A stretch of DNA of 31,603 nucleotides from the IMG/VR virus record IMGVR_UViG_3300010883_009513, positions 1 through 31,603 of that record. One strand, written 5' to 3'. The DNA is from a virus. A program made the translations under genes and the position numbers. The notes under the pieces are model-generated. The model worked only from the letters and a program-made list of their open reading frames with translations, was not told where the DNA came from and did no database searches. Position 1 is the stretch's first letter. Each line of letters starts with the position of its first letter. This document shows positions 8,644-27,260 of this stretch, piece by piece.

Positions 8644-8920
8644 GAAAATAAATCCTTGGACTTTGGAAACTTATGAAGAAAAAGAATGTCCAGATTGTGA
8701 AGAGGACAAAGCCAAATGGGGACTAACGGATTCTATAAAGATGCTAAATAGTGATGAAGTAAAGCAACTTCAGAAAGAACGTCTTGCTATCTGCAAAAAA
8801 TGTGAGCATAGTAAAGACTTGATGGGTCGAGGTTGGATTAATTATTGTGACATTTGTGGATGTATGTTAAATGCGAAAACACGCATTGCATCCTCTAAAT
8901 GTCCAGATGGGAGATGGTGA
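8636..8920 (+). CDS. cysteine-rich putative zinc-binding protein
   Basis: 94 residues with paired cysteines: CPDC at 18-21, then CKKCEH, CDICGC and KCPDGRW in the C-terminal half. The pattern suggests one or two zinc ribbons. Similar small proteins with a terminal CPxGRW are conserved in marine T4-like phages, without an assigned function. It overlaps both neighbours slightly, typical of tightly packed phage genes. Confidence 0.65.
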   Translation: MAKKINPWTLETYEEKECPDCEEDKAKWGLTDSIKMLNSDEVKQLQKERLAICKKCEHSKDLMGRGWINYCDICGCMLNAKTRIASSKCPDGRW

Positions 8921-8927
8921 ATATAAT

Positions 8928-9911
8928 ATGGATTATCAAGAAGCAGGTGTCGACCTATACGAGCAAGAAGTATTTAATGTGAAACTTCAAGGCAAAATGC
9001 CTTGGTTAGGTGGTTTTGCTGGAGCAGTAGATATCGGAGAAGATTATCTAGTGTCAAGTTGTGATGGAATTGGAACTAAAATTCAACTCTATCTAGACAA
9101 CAAAGACCATCCAGAAGTTAGTATCAAAAATCTAGGTTGGGACCTCGTAGCAATGGTATTTAATGATATCGTTTGTACTGGTGCTGTTCCTATGTTTATG
9201 AACGACTACTTAGCAGTAAATAATTTAAAAGACGCCGAGTTCTTAGATTTAATTGCAGGTATCAATGAAGGATTAGCCGAGATAGGCGTTCCTTGTCCTT
9301 TGATATCAGGTGAAACTGCATTAATGCCCGCTCTGATGGAGAAGGGTAAATTTGATATTGCTGGATTCGGTGTTGGTGCTATCAAGAAGGAACTCTTCAT
9401 TGATGGTACGAATATTAAAGAAGGCGATTGGATGATTGGACTAAAATCATCTGGCTTCCATAGCAATGGCTATACGTTAATTCGTAAAGTCTGGCAGACA
9501 CAAAAGTATCGTGCTACTCAAGAAGAAGCCGATGCCCTGCTACCAAAACTACTAACACCGACACGAATTTATGCGTCAACCATATTGAAATTGCTATCGC
9601 AACATCGAAGCAGTGTTAATGGAATTGCTCATATAACTGGTGGTGGTAGAGATAATGTTCTACGCCTTCTAGGCGAAGATATTAACCTTCGTCCTCAGTG
9701 GGATGACAATTGGGAAAAACCAGAAGAATTTGACTGGATTCAAAAGATGGGCAGTATTAGTGACCAAGAAATGAAGCGAGTATTTAATGATGGTATCGGA
9801 ATGGTACTTATTGTTAGCGAAAACTCAGCCGTTGAAGTCATTGAAACATTGACTGCTCTAAAAGAGAGTCCTATTATTTGTGGGAAAATATCCTCAAGGC
9901 TTAAACAGTAA
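8928..9911 (+). CDS. purM: phosphoribosylformylglycinamidine cyclo-ligase (AIR synthetase)
   Basis: 327 residues, close to bacterial PurM (about 345). It catalyses the ATP-dependent ring closure of FGAM to aminoimidazole ribotide, step 5 of purine synthesis. Family motifs in order are YQEAGVD, SSCDGIGTKIQLYL, MVFNDIVCTGAVPMFMNDYLA, SGETALMP, GFGVGAIKK, LKSSGFHSNGYTL and HITGGGRDNVLRLL. ATG 8928 fits the family start; a start at 8871 inside the previous gene is rejected. Auxiliary purM genes are known in marine T4-like phages and probably raise purine supply for genome synthesis. Confidence 0.95.
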   Translation: MDYQEAGVDLYEQEVFNVKLQGKMPWLGGFAGAVDIGEDYLVSSCDGIGTKIQLYLDNKDHPEVSIKNLGWDLVAMVFNDIVCTGAVPMFMNDYLAVNNLKDAEFLDLIAGINEGLAEIGVPCPLISGETALMPALMEKGKFDIAGFGVGAIKKELFIDGTNIKEGDWMIGLKSSGFHSNGYTLIRKVWQTQKYRATQEEADALLPKLLTPTRIYASTILKLLSQHRSSVNGIAHITGGGRDNVLRLLGEDINLRPQWDDNWEKPEEFDWIQKMGSISDQEMKRVFNDGIGMVLIVSENSAVEVIETLTALKESPIICGKISSRLKQ

Positions 9912-11282: not shown

Positions 11283-12191
11283 ATGAATAATTGGATGACA
11301 GCAACATTAGTTGCATTGACATTAGTAATGTCGAATAGAGCGATAGCAGAGCCATCTCCAGATTTGGGCGGGCTAGAAGCAAAACTATTCGGTGAAATTA
11401 ACCAAGCCATAACAACAAATCAATCGGGTGATTCTGATTTTGTGACAGGCGTTAACAGTAGTCATTTCGGAGTTGACTTAACAGATAGTCGCTTCGGTGA
11501 AAATAAATGGTTCGGTCGCATTTCTGCGGACGTAGACCTAAACGATAAAGATGATGGTATTGACACTAAGGATGCTTATGTGGGGTATCAAAAGGGCCCA
11601 CTTGAACTAACCTTTGGTCGCCAAATGAATATGCGTGGTAAAATCAGAGAAGCGACAGTTGGTATCTTTGAGGGACCTAATAAATTTAAAACTCAAAATG
11701 AAGGTCGTGAAGGACAAACTCTCAAAGCACAATATGAGATGGGTACCACAGTTTTTGTAGGAACAGTAACGACAGATATTGGTGCATCTAACACAAAAGT
11801 TGATTCTTGGGAAGTAGGAACATCTTACCTCTTTAGAGATAATATCAATATGGTGTCAGGTTTTGCCAGAGATGAAGATACATCTACGAACACGCTACTT
11901 GGTGGAGTAAACTACACTTGGGGAGATTATCTCTTCGGTGGGACTTATGAAAGAGCATTGAAACACGCTCTGAAGCCAGGCAAAGGAAAATTCAATCTAG
12001 TAGCACAGAAACGACTAGACGATAAGAACACAATCAAGGGTGGATATCAAACTATCGAAAGCGGTACTGATACTTATCTTCTTGAAGCAGTACACGAGTT
12101 CAATGGTTACGGAGCGGTTTATGCCAATGCCGAACATATCACTGAAGACAGTGCTGAAAATTATACGCTAGGATTTAGACTTCGGTTCTAA
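11283..12191 (+). CDS. outer-membrane porin
   Basis: 302 residues. A signal peptide covers about residues 1-22 (LVALTLVMSNRAIAE, probable cut after AIA). The mature part has alternating beta-strand patterns typical of Gram-negative 16-strand porins: WFGRISADVDLND, DAYVGYQKGPLELTFGRQ, FNLVAQKRL and YAVYANAEH-like strands. It ends in GFRLRF, the terminal aromatic signal recognised by the BAM machinery. It is a full-length, apparently intact porin, which is unusual in a lytic-type phage genome. It may change host permeability or replace a receptor porin and so block superinfection. A strong terminator follows. Confidence 0.88.
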   Translation: MNNWMTATLVALTLVMSNRAIAEPSPDLGGLEAKLFGEINQAITTNQSGDSDFVTGVNSSHFGVDLTDSRFGENKWFGRISADVDLNDKDDGIDTKDAYVGYQKGPLELTFGRQMNMRGKIREATVGIFEGPNKFKTQNEGREGQTLKAQYEMGTTVFVGTVTTDIGASNTKVDSWEVGTSYLFRDNINMVSGFARDEDTSTNTLLGGVNYTWGDYLFGGTYERALKHALKPGKGKFNLVAQKRLDDKNTIKGGYQTIESGTDTYLLEAVHEFNGYGAVYANAEHITEDSAENYTLGFRLRF

Positions 12192-22311: not shown

Positions 22312-23475
22312 ATGACTAAAATATTTGACCTAGGTGAAACAATATCTAGTAAGAAAACGAGACTGTTCTTAGGACCAGAATCAACTCGCAGGAACATTCA
22401 GACCTATCACGACCCAAAGTATAAGTGGATATTAGATTTCGCTGAAGAACTTAGGGCTATGGGGAATTGGAGTAAGAATGAGATTGACCTGTCCAAGGAA
22501 AAACGAGACTTTGATGGACTTGACGAAGCAGGACGCCATATATTTGAAGCGGGCCTTAAATTCGCAATAACATTAGATTCCTGTGCAGGCCGAGCGCCTC
22601 TAGAATTGTTTAATAAAGGCGGGATATCTAACAATCCTGAATGGGAACTATATCTAACCAATCACCAGAACAATGAACTATTACACTCGGAATCATATAC
22701 TGAGATGGTACGAGCAGTATATAATGATGTTGATTTGTTTATCGATTCTATTATATCAGATGAGTATATCCAAAACAGAGCCACGAGTATTCTTAGTGCC
22801 TTTGATTGGTCAACCTCTGTATGTGAGAAGAATGAGGCTAACCAGACCGCTGAAGATAATGGTATGTCTAAGCCTTTTCCTGAAGTTGATGAGAAGATGC
22901 TGAAAACGGCAATATACAAGTCTGCATTGACTATTAATATGTTTGAGGGTATCAGGTTCTTCGCTACATTTGTGACGAATTGGTCCTTCTCAGAACAACC
23001 AGTCAAATTGATGCAAGGCTCTAGTAATATCTTTAAATTGATTGCACGAGATGAGATGATTCATTTGGACGTATTTCAACGAGTTCTGATGATGATGCGT
23101 AATGATAAATCAGAAGGGTTCCAAGAAATTATCAAGGAACTTGAGCCTGAAACTTATGAAATGTTTAAGATAGCATACGATGAAGAGATTGAATGGATTG
23201 ATTATCTATTCTCCAAAGGAACACCTCTTATCGGTATGAATGCTACAATACTGAAGCATTATATGGATTACATATTTGCTGTCAGAATGAAGAATATCGG
23301 GTTGGACCCAACTAAGATTGGGCTAGAATCAGCCCCATATAACCCCGTACCTTGGGTAGATAACTACCTCGATTCAAACCACATCAAATCTGCACCTCAA
23401 GAAATTGAGTCTGTAAATTATGTGGCCGCAATCGATAATAGTAAGGACGTGGATTTCGATATGGACGACTTGTAG
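22312..23475 (+). CDS. nrdB: ribonucleotide reductase class I, beta subunit
   Basis: 387 residues, ferritin-like fold. The di-iron ligands are visible: Asp89 in ITLDSCAGR, Glu122 and His125 in NNELLHSESY, Glu in EGIRFFATF, and the pair in ARDEMIHLD. The radical tyrosine is Tyr129, four residues after His125, as in class Ia. This subunit generates the tyrosyl radical that starts catalysis in NrdA. Since it needs iron, the phage Fe-S and ferredoxin genes could help its activation (inference). It has a GGAG start site. Confidence 0.98.
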   Translation: MTKIFDLGETISSKKTRLFLGPESTRRNIQTYHDPKYKWILDFAEELRAMGNWSKNEIDLSKEKRDFDGLDEAGRHIFEAGLKFAITLDSCAGRAPLELFNKGGISNNPEWELYLTNHQNNELLHSESYTEMVRAVYNDVDLFIDSIISDEYIQNRATSILSAFDWSTSVCEKNEANQTAEDNGMSKPFPEVDEKMLKTAIYKSALTINMFEGIRFFATFVTNWSFSEQPVKLMQGSSNIFKLIARDEMIHLDVFQRVLMMMRNDKSEGFQEIIKELEPETYEMFKIAYDEEIEWIDYLFSKGTPLIGMNATILKHYMDYIFAVRMKNIGLDPTKIGLESAPYNPVPWVDNYLDSNHIKSAPQEIESVNYVAAIDNSKDVDFDMDDL

Positions 23476-23486
23476 AAAGGAAGATT

Positions 23487-23669
23487 ATGTTCAATTTTAT
23501 TAGTACGAAGTTTAAAAATAGCAAGAACTTTAAAGCCGACTATGAGTACCAAAAACAAAGGGCGGATTCTCTTGAGTTAAAGTTGAATTTTGTTCTAAGT
23601 GGAATTGCTGATGTGGTTAAGAAAGTTGATAATAATGGTAACGTCAGTTACGAGAATATGGAGCAGTGA
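23487..23669 (+). CDS. small hypothetical protein
   Basis: 60 residues with a good AAAGGAAG site. It is a mostly helical, charged peptide (ADYEYQKQRADSLELKLNFV), possibly a short coiled coil. It lies between nrdB and groES and is presumably co-transcribed with them. No family is recognised. Confidence 0.6.
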   Translation: MFNFISTKFKNSKNFKADYEYQKQRADSLELKLNFVLSGIADVVKKVDNNGNVSYENMEQ

Positions 23670-23671
23670 AA

Positions 23672-24267
<596 letters not shown>

Positions 24268-24970: not shown

Positions 24971-25213
24971 ATGGGAGAATACTCTTTGAAACGAAATAGT
25001 TCACCAGAGCAAGTCAAGAAGGTCAAAATGAACTCTGTTAAAGACCAACTTGACCAGCTCAAAAATCGGAAAATGACTCCTAAGAAGGCTAATTTAGTCA
25101 AACATCTGAAAAATTTGATGAAATGGAACCTTCGAAAGAGCCACGCTCCAAAACGTAAAAAAGCAATGGAGAAGGTAGTAATTCTGCCTGAGATGATTAA
25201 CGAAGATGAGTGA
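24971..25213 (+). CDS. small very basic hypothetical protein
   Basis: 80 residues from ATG 24971. TTG 24986 is an alternative with a proper GGGAG site 7-8 bases upstream, whereas ATG 24971 lies only about 3 bases after the expected transcript start. The protein is lysine/arginine-rich and helical (DQLDQLKNRKMTPKKANLVK, then LKNLMKWNLRKSHAPKRKK), suggesting RNA or DNA binding. It overlaps the HD-domain gene by 8 bases. No family is recognised. Confidence 0.62.
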   Translation: MGEYSLKRNSSPEQVKKVKMNSVKDQLDQLKNRKMTPKKANLVKHLKNLMKWNLRKSHAPKRKKAMEKVVILPEMINEDE

Positions 25214-25808
25214 GAAAGATAAGGACGAAATGACAGAAGAATATACAAATCATATGATTCGTAAGGCTGAGACCTTCGCTGAGATTGCCCACGATGGGCA
25301 GAAGCGTAAGGGTGGAAAAGATGTGCCTTACATCACTCACCCATTCGCAGTAGCGGAGATTCTCAAAGAGAATGGTGCAACGACTGAAGCAATACTAGGT
25401 GGTTTGCTTCACGATGTTGTTGAAGATACATCAAGCACGTTGGAAGACGTTGGAGATGCCTTCGGTCGAGGTGTGATGGAAGTTGTTGATTTTGTGTCTG
25501 AAGAAGGTGCTAGTCCAGAAGGAAAAGCACCCTGGAAAGTGAGAAAGACTGCTTATATTGAGCGACTACAGAATGCTCCCTATGACGCTGTCCTTGTCGC
25601 CAGTGCTGATAAATTGAGTAATGTTCGTGATACTGTTGATGACTACAAAGTAGTTGGAGAGGGTGTATGGAAGATGTTCAACAGCCAGAAACCTAGCCAG
25701 TACTGGTACTATACTACTCTGATTGCACTGTTTGAAAGTCGTGGGATTCCAAGCAAGATTATTAATGAATTGAAAAGTTCTATGTTGGTGCTCCACAAAG
25801 TTAAATGA
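25206..25808 (+). CDS. HD-domain alarmone hydrolase-like (MESH1/SpoT type)
   Basis: 200 residues matching small alarmone hydrolases. AHDGQKRKGGKDVPYITHPF has His29 and His45, GGLLHDVVEDT has the HDxxED set (His69, Asp70, Glu73, Asp74), and ASADKLSNVRDT carries the late Asp. Enzymes of this type use Mn to remove pyrophosphate from (p)ppGpp. No synthetase domain is present. In a phage this could lower the starvation signal and keep host synthesis active. Other HD-type nucleotide hydrolases remain possible. It is co-transcribed from the promoter at 24933. Confidence 0.82.
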   Translation: MSEKDKDEMTEEYTNHMIRKAETFAEIAHDGQKRKGGKDVPYITHPFAVAEILKENGATTEAILGGLLHDVVEDTSSTLEDVGDAFGRGVMEVVDFVSEEGASPEGKAPWKVRKTAYIERLQNAPYDAVLVASADKLSNVRDTVDDYKVVGEGVWKMFNSQKPSQYWYYTTLIALFESRGIPSKIINELKSSMLVLHKVK

Positions 25809-26100: not shown

Positions 26101-26258
26101 TGTCCACAATTTAACTAGCAAGGAGGTGTTCTTTTATCTACGAGTAATTTAAGTCAAATTCACTTACAGAGGAGAATTAATATACTGATATGATAGAAAA
26201 GTTGTTAAAAAATAAGCACGTTTGCTCAGGAATGACGTAAAAAGCGTGTCACGAGGTA
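26101..26258 (+). other. noncoding stretch upstream of tmRNA
   Basis: No convincing ORF. It contains AAGGAGGTG (26122-26130), a perfect complement of the 16S rRNA 3' tail but with no start codon at a proper distance. The GGAGGTG part (26124-26130) is also perfectly complementary to the tmRNA acceptor strand CACCTCC. A 16-codon ORF from 26190 is too weakly supported to call. It may be a 5' leader of the tmRNA precursor or a relic. Confidence 0.5.
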
Positions 26259-26477
26259 GATAACAGCGTAAATTTGTTGTTTAAGTTATCACAAGACCCG
26301 GGTGCAAATCCCGGCACCTCCACCATAAGAGCATTTAGTAGATGAGATATTGAATCACTGCTTGCTAAGTGCTTTTATGATGGGGGTGTTTTAGGATTCG
26401 ATTGAGATAGACGAGAACAATAGACGCTCGACCCATTTATACATAAGTCGAAAAAATACGTATAAATAAATGTAACT

Positions 26478-26510
26478 GCAAACACAGAAGCATACGCAAT
26501 AGCCGCATAA
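26478..26510 (+). other. tmRNA tag reading frame (ANTEAYAIAA)
   Basis: Starting at resume codon GCA 26478, 11 bases after pseudoknot PK1, the frame reads A-N-T-E-A-Y-A-I-A-A and stops at TAA 26508-26510. The stop lies in the loop of a hairpin (AATAGCC 26498-26504 with GGCTATT 26512-26518), as in standard tmRNAs. The C-terminal AIAA resembles degradation tags such as ALAA and AVAA recognised by ClpXP. Confidence 0.94.
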
Positions 26511-26529
26511 GGGCTATTTGAGGATTTCA

Positions 26530-26560
26530 GAGGGGTTACCTTATTACCAAATAACCCCTC
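26530..26560 (+). other. strong hairpin at 3' end of tmRNA coding piece
   Basis: GAGGGGTTA (26530-26538) pairs perfectly with TAACCCCTC (26552-26560) around a 13-base loop. It may be the last helix of the tmRNA coding piece or mark its end. No T-run follows, so simple termination is unlikely. Confidence 0.6.
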
Positions 26561-26562
26561 AC

Positions 26563-26825
26563 AGAATTAAAAAACCGTGTTGTAGGTTCAGGAATGTTTT
26601 AGACACCGTGAGTGTAGAAGTATTAAGAGAGACACCATAGATAGTGCAACATTCCGAGAGAAGGGGTCACCTAGTCTGATTTTGCCCAAATCTTACCCCC
26701 GAATAGTTGTTTACGGTGCAACTACAAATTAACGACCCAGATGCCTTCGGGACTGAGTTGTTAATACTAGACGTAGTTCTTATATAAGGCTACATATTTT
26801 AATCTTGCTCATTGAGGAGACAATT
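26563..26825 (+). ncRNA. possible structured noncoding RNA
   Basis: No ORF, but several helices. GGAATGTT (26591-26598) pairs with AACATTCC (26648-26655). AGTTG (26705-26709) pairs with CAACT (26719-26723). ATTAACGAC (26728-26736) pairs with GTTGTTAAT (26757-26765) around an inner CC-TTCG-GG tetraloop stem. This exceeds what I expect from an ordinary leader. It could be a separate RNA, the 5' leader of hsp20, or an RNA thermosensor-like element. No known family is recognised. Confidence 0.4.
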
Positions 26826-27260
26826 ATGACAAGGCAACAACTTACTACCCCACAAGGTTTTTTCGACCCGTGGACACACCAATCTTTCGGACTTGATAAT
26901 ATCTTTCAAGCGATGGAACAGTTCAATCACCAACCTAACCAGAAGTATCCCCCATATAATATAGTCAAAACAGACACCACATATGTGTTGGAGTTTGCTC
27001 TCGCAGGTTGGAAAATGGATGAACTATCCGCAGTTCTTGAAAAGAACGTATTGACTGTATCTGGCAAAAAGCTGGAGGAAGGAAATGAAGCGGTGATTCA
27101 TAGAGGAATTGCAAATCGTAGTTTCAACAGTTCATTTACTATCGGTGACAGTGTTCAAATTAAAGATGCTGATTTAACGGATGGTCTATTGACAATCAAT
27201 ATGGACATTGTGATACCGGAAGAAGATAAGCCTAGGACTATTAATATTAGTAGTTCCTAG
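26826..27260 (+). CDS. Hsp20 small heat-shock protein
   Basis: 144 residues from ATG 26826 (GAGGAGA site); the longer frame start at 26805 is not needed. The alpha-crystallin domain covers about residues 38-135: YPPYNIVKTDTTYVLEFALAGW, LTVSGKK, HRGIANRSFNSSFTIGDSV, LLTINMDIVIPEEDKPRTI. It is close to the IbpA type, with the conserved HRGIA.R.F and a C-terminal I-x-I (INI). It holds unfolded proteins for refolding. Hsp20 genes are common in marine T4-like phages and may aid virion assembly together with the GroES gene here. Confidence 0.93.
   Translation: MTRQQLTTPQGFFDPWTHQSFGLDNIFQAMEQFNHQPNQKYPPYNIVKTDTTYVLEFALAGWKMDELSAVLEKNVLTVSGKKLEEGNEAVIHRGIANRSFNSSFTIGDSVQIKDADLTDGLLTINMDIVIPEEDKPRTINISSS

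Follow-up and report, generated by a model that had tools for sequence, protein, structure and literature searches.

A divergent circularly permuted tmRNA gene in a T4-like, probably marine phage, and probable protein genes nested in the intervening segments of related phage tmRNAs

Does a T4-like phage carry a complete gene for a circularly permuted, two-piece tmRNA (ssrA), and how would such an RNA work in an infected cell? The question is raised by a 31.6-kb virus fragment (IMG/VR record IMGVR_UViG_3300010883_009513), whose 31,603 nt are called the window throughout. A preliminary description made from the letters alone had proposed a phage-encoded, permuted two-piece tmRNA here, and a covariance model, ARAGORN and comparative covariation agree with it. 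The Rfam model RF04321 (tmRNA_permuted) matched positions 26265-26510 on the plus strand with 86.7 bits (E 1.5e-15, gathering score 47), giving the covariance-model significance on which that proposal had been made to depend, and ARAGORN, which is independent of Rfam, called a permuted tmRNA at 26233-26601. In the RF04321 alignment and the ARAGORN call alike, the CCA-bearing acceptor piece comes before the coding piece, which is the permuted order. Two further models suggested as checks stayed below their cut-offs in the window, alpha_tmRNA (RF01849) with 38.6 bits against 50 and beta_tmRNA (RF01850) with 61.5 bits against 84, and only the merged permuted model exceeded its cut-off among the Rfam tmRNA models tried. 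Some relatives do exceed one or the other: L077 and L191 reach 54.3 and 51.4 bits with alpha_tmRNA, and L147 and L148 reach 93.7 and 93.2 bits with beta_tmRNA. Judged by these scores, the window RNA is divergent, lying between the alpha and beta models and better described as beta; it is also divergent because its RF04321 score falls below the 113-162 bits of nearly all hits in Pseudomonadota. With high confidence we take the locus for a complete permuted tmRNA gene carried by a T4-like and probably marine phage, whose RNA would work by host-aided trans-translation.

The structural parts of the RNA are collected in Table 1, and most of those proposed beforehand were recovered. P2 helices join the two pieces (helices 1-3 of the covariation test), the weak one being P2b, with three pairs showing compensatory change and pairing in 66.7% of cells. 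The acceptor stem, GGGGGUG/CACCUCC in the window, carries the expected G3-U70 wobble, a G-U that is invariant in the relatives. The ten-codon tag is an open frame with its stop codon in the loop of a 7-bp hairpin that covaries in relatives, and it lines up with their tags GNTDTYALAA and VDSETYALAA; this alignment favours the ten-codon version over that of ARAGORN, which has two extra leading codons (VTANTEAYAIAA). The hairpin of the intervening segment is likewise present, with 16 bp by energy folding (z -3.5) rather than the 15 bp originally counted. Downstream of the tag, UGAGG (26519-26523) may pair with the loop CCUUA (26539-26543) in a candidate H-type pseudoknot; because both strands are identical in 9 of 9 relatives, covariation speaks neither for nor against it. 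For the region as a whole the folding z is -5.95, and the end of the coding piece at 26562 is approximate, the beta_tmRNA alignment extending to 26569. The T-loop of the window has U55 changed to G, a milder departure from the usual UUCRANU than the GGCAGUA of phages L018, L021, L026, L148 and L199, in which U54 and A58 are lost.

Table 1. Features of the permuted tmRNA gene and of its neighbours in the window
Feature	Position	Strand	Evidence
nrdB, ribonucleotide reductase small subunit, locus anchor in relatives	22312-23475	+	Pfam PF00268
HD-domain phosphohydrolase	25206-25808	+	Pfam PF13328, phrog_990
Acceptor (3') piece: P2 strands, T-arm, 3' acceptor strand, discriminator A, encoded CCA	26265-26325	+	RF04321 alignment, ARAGORN, covariation
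P2a 5' strand AGCGU; partner ACGCU at 26424-26428, joining both pieces	26265-26269	+	covariation helix 1
P2b 5' strand UUGUU; partner AACAA at 26416-26420	26274-26278	+	covariation helix 2
P2c 5' strand UUAUC; partner GAUAG at 26406-26410	26286-26290	+	covariation helix 3
T-arm CCGGG-UGCAAAU-CCCGG, loop G at position 55	26298-26314	+	RF04321, covariation helix 4
Acceptor stem 3' strand CACCUCC + A + CCA; partner at 26382-26388	26315-26325	+	covariation helix 5
Encoded CCA	26323-26325	+	ARAGORN
Intervening segment, 56 nt, hairpin, ends UGAU just before coding piece	26326-26381	+	energy folding, segment comparison
Coding (5') piece: acceptor 5' strand, D-arm analogue, P2 strands, hairpins, tag	26382-26562	+	ARAGORN, RF04321
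Coding-piece hairpin CGAC...GUCG	26429-26450	+	RF04321, covariation helix 6
Tag frame ANTEAYAIAA + UAA, 10 codons	26478-26510	+	sequence, ARAGORN, alignment with relatives
Tag hairpin AAUAGCC-GCAUAAG-GGCUAUU, 7 bp	26498-26518	+	energy folding, covariation helix 7
3' hairpin GAGGGGUUA...UAACCCCUC, within 26519-26560	26530-26560	+	fold z -3.75, covariation helix 8
Hsp20 small heat-shock protein	26826-27260	+	Pfam PF00011, phrog_432

Conservation of the structure was assessed in relatives located through the neighbouring NrdB and Hsp20 proteins and not through the RNA. Across nine aligned two-piece RNAs stripped of their intervening segments, 86.2% of pair cells were standard and 22 of 47 pairs had changed on both sides, for a tested structure that was drawn from the window sequence and is somewhat favoured by that choice. 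None of 500 shuffles reached the observed pairing and compensatory values, and with the partner strands offset by 1-3 bases pairing fell to 42-51%. The stem pairs are thus conserved in related phages, as the preliminary description had predicted for a genuine tmRNA, with clear compensatory changes in the acceptor stem, T-stem, tag hairpin and last hairpin. Among the nine homologues the T-arm is 100% paired, with compensatory change in four of its five pairs, and the acceptor stem is also 100% paired, with two covarying pairs; three of the four pairs of the hairpin at 26429-26450 covary. Positions 5 and 6 of the acceptor stem go from GC to AU to UA among the relatives, which show the forms GGGGGUG/CACCUCC, GGGGGCG/CGCCUCC, GGGGAUG/CAUCUCC and GGGGUUG/CRACUCC, all of them keeping G3-U70.

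This pattern bears on two other explanations. The RNA could be a decaying or inhibitory copy, a tmRNA-like molecule that has lost tagging and acts by titrating SmpB or by competition with the tmRNA of the host, as its divergence and its sub-threshold alpha and beta scores might suggest; a TLD-only tmRNA is known from phage DS6A, and a similar molecule inhibits tmRNA (PMC4131195). We regard this as very unlikely, since the tag frame is open in all relatives examined, ending -ALAA or -AIAA, and since the tag hairpin, P2 and the acceptor stem have been kept through compensatory change. Less probable still, and hardly credible, is a functionless fragment of a cellular tmRNA picked up by imprecise prophage excision: tmRNA genes are common integration sites, and this route is discussed in the Melnitz paper (PMC9004378), yet the gene sits inside a T4-like block, on the nrdB side in 19 related loci, has undergone compensatory changes during its evolution, and has no near-identical phage DNA among the phage records compared.

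The T4-like setting claimed at the outset is borne out by the neighbourhood of topoisomerase II subunits, an RNase H-like exonuclease, DNA ligase, NrdA/NrdB, GroES, HD phosphohydrolase and Hsp20. In the 19 related loci, found via NrdB, the tmRNA lies downstream of nrdB, and the two closest relatives (L191 and L077) have the Hsp20 neighbour in common with the window. The gene is optional, because 21 related loci gave no ARAGORN tmRNA in the corresponding region. At the DNA level, 50,697 phage records held no match to the tmRNA in a distant search or to 24.7 kb of the window in a near search, and promoter and terminator scans were not above chance. Neither the window nor any of ten related contigs, all of them fragments, yielded an SmpB gene; host SmpB is therefore presumably used. 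The fragment also encodes host-type metabolic and chaperone functions, namely an AIR synthase (PurM-like, 8871-9911), a GroES-like protein (23666-24046) and the Hsp20-like protein of Table 1, as well as a porin-like outer-membrane protein (11283-12191, Pfam Porin_4) and IscU- and IscA-like iron-sulphur assembly proteins (434-1131). Host assignment through the phage IscU was abandoned, its matches at 75-83% identity being spread over gamma- and betaproteobacteria so that no single assignment followed.

A marine methylophage report of tmRNA genes, mentioned in the preliminary description, proves to be that on the OM43 phage Melnitz, presumably by Buchholz and colleagues. The report describes a two-piece tmRNA in this phage and suggests a two-piece form for 53 phage tmRNAs, of which 50 come from phages of marine or aquatic origin (PMC9004378, 2022); a 2025 database lists 79 tmRNA sequences from bacteriophages along with 11,946 permuted genes (PMC11915505). 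The phage two-piece tmRNA is a kind already known, to which the window adds a different T4-like lineage and a different locus. RF04321 gives 113.4 bits for Melnitz (MZ577097), 93.6 for Pelagibacter phage Mosig (MT647606) and 90.6 for Pelagibacter phage HTVC008M (NC_020484); the two-piece tmRNA is annotated in the records of Melnitz and Mosig, and that of HTVC008M (145161-145370, tag ANFNEYALAA) stands without annotation in the stretch of the record read. These T4-like marine myophages and the window have permuted tmRNAs of the same acceptor design and with tags of the same type of end, -ALAA in the three phages and -AIAA in the window. Their locus lies next to exonuclease/PD-(D/E)XK genes and the late-transcription coactivator, in contrast to nrdB and HD/hsp20 in the window; and they score 67.6-106.7 bits with alpha_tmRNA, whereas the window RNA fits better as beta (61.5 vs 38.6). 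Melnitz also has a glutamine riboswitch.

With the permuted tmRNAs of Alphaproteobacteria, some Betaproteobacteria and Cyanobacteria (RF01849, RF01850 and RF01851, merged in RF04321), the window RNA shares the gene order, the acceptor/T-arm/P2 plan, the encoded CCA and a tag in a hairpin, but it is phage-borne, divergent and below the alpha and beta cut-offs. Permuted tmRNAs were present in 142 of 398 sampled Pseudomonadota genomes, where the longest RF04321 span was 332 nt and the others listed were at most 311 nt. This phylum sample was used instead of a class sample built on genome L416 as an alphaproteobacterial centre, where just 3 of 229 genomes passed the cut-off.

By analogy with the established tmRNA pathway, ordinary trans-translation on a phage RNA with a phage tag is the likely function. 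Once expressed, one precursor transcript would cover both pieces, and tRNA-type processing at the predicted ends would excise the 56-nt intervening hairpin, the acceptor stem and P2 helices holding the two mature pieces together. The host alanyl-tRNA synthetase would then charge the RNA (G3-U70), host EF-Tu and SmpB would work on it, and ribosomes stalled on broken messages would be rescued during infection, to the presumed benefit of the phage. ANTEAYAIAA, with its hydrophobic-x-Ala-Ala type of end, would be added as a tag for proteolysis.

The intervening segment of the window is an ordinary hairpin with no protein gene, whereas in the wider phage group this segment may hold protein genes and reaches 232 nt: the sister phages have 83 nt (L191), 134 nt (L125), 173 nt (L134), 176 nt (L145) and 232 nt (L126). 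Those of L134 and L145 hold a basic frame of 53 codons (MKKKRVGKRGR...), in which the two phages differ by 17 synonymous and 8 non-synonymous codon changes; L194 is also listed with this gene. Over ten distinct copies, pN/pS was 0.23 in frame vs 1.29 and 1.77 in the other frames. A search with the protein found 13 loci, where the gene is either nested in the tmRNA (L490-L495) or elsewhere in the phage genome (L496-L502).

A long-segment pattern scan exposed a second, larger group of nested frames in pelagimyophage-like contigs, with segments of 159 or 177 nt and a membrane-type protein of 38-44 residues (MKNPLVREVSKWMFKAYIVWSICADITLLAGIIYLVFF). Here pN/pS was 0.20 vs 0.87 and 1.91 in the other frames (49 distinct copies), and the half of the gene free of any overlapping frame gave 0.157. 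A Shine-Dalgarno motif AAGGAR precedes a short overlapping frame (...GDQDEEPLSTRGK) in 56 of 61 copies, L224 among these 56 having been read in the membrane-protein frame itself, which makes a two-frame cassette of about 19 codons overlapping the membrane-type gene (for example L385, around 2001-2114). When the protein served as query, so that the RNA played no part, 207 relatives turned up among viral contigs; this family, the only nested one looked for in cellular genomes, had no match in 84,980 bacterial and archaeal genomes. Among the best 80 of the 207 relatives (L325-L404), 76 lead into UGA-U-GGGG, at which a tmRNA coding piece starts, and RF04321 matched all 20 loci tested, a sample that includes loci with no ARAGORN call. 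The RF04321 span is 342-570 nt in phage loci with the nested membrane-protein gene, in contrast to at most 332 nt in the 142 cellular genomes. L401-L404 carry the same two-frame cassette outside the segment, immediately ahead of a tmRNA whose own segment is short and of the ordinary type, and the cassette has therefore moved relative to the tmRNA. Three cassette loci are surrounded by T4-like genes (PhoH, exonuclease, ssDNA-binding protein, thymidylate synthase or helicase loader), the block in which Melnitz, Mosig and HTVC008M keep their tmRNA.

We consider it highly probable that the intervening segments of the sister and pelagimyophage-like phages hold real nested protein genes of at least two unrelated families. 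Both families evolve under purifying selection, as their low in-frame pN/pS shows, and occur nested and outside the segment; nested copies almost always end in UGA one base before the tmRNA 5' end. The first pattern scans demand particular acceptor letters, so that their counts hold among the matches listed and are not frequencies. UGAU precedes the coding piece in 32 of 72 short gene-less segments and in 42 of 51 long ones. Because UGAU is also found in gene-less short segments, the nested genes probably use existing junction sequence as their stop. Only 16 of the 51 long segments beat shuffles for ORF length at p<=0.05, which makes ORF length a weak argument, and the case therefore rests on codon-level selection and on the copies outside the segment. 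Several candidates were set aside: L125, L304 and L320 have no long ORF, the single 64-codon frame of L126 is unsupported as a nested gene, and so are the nested ORFs of L240/L259 and L248/L256, pairs too alike for the selection test. The intervening segment of Melnitz (L199, MZ577097 about 46096-46257) contains an unannotated frame (MFKWLSKTRLVVITRDYFRERNRKADAKIPKYLSG...) common to the metagenomic contigs L211 and L301. Judged from sequence, it is a possible nested gene, running into the tmRNA coding piece and having a weaker signal (pN/pS 0.31, three sequences only). As contents of intervening sequences, the 2025 database paper (PMC11915505) mentions a tRNA gene and a repeat; we found no report of protein genes there in the open-access texts searched.

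Because the nested UGA ends one base before the tmRNA 5' end, it is conceivable that a single transcript would yield both a two-piece tmRNA and a mini-message, which would open with its ribosome-binding site and have a single base after its stop codon. If that end were trimmed, the mini-message would become a non-stop substrate of the same tmRNA, in an arfA-like feedback. In E. coli, arfA encodes a backup ribosome rescue factor from a non-stop message, its product depending on tmRNA activity (PMC10107115). The likeness is one of analogy only, a message whose stop codon coincides with its end or lies past it and a product tied to tmRNA activity; unlike arfA, to which they have no sequence relation, the nested phage genes have a hypothetical coupling to tmRNA. 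That maturation and nested-protein synthesis control each other, for instance through such feedback, is a speculation we think doubtful, and plain genome compactness is a simpler view of the nesting.

The window places a divergent lineage, at a locus of its own, beside the permuted tmRNAs already known from phages, and lends support to the view that selection keeps a ribosome-rescue RNA of their own in marine T4-like phages. The nested genes would be protein genes within a stretch that is cut away from the precursor of a structural RNA, where RNA processing could release or destroy the message, and present annotation, as in Melnitz, may miss proteins hidden inside tmRNA features.
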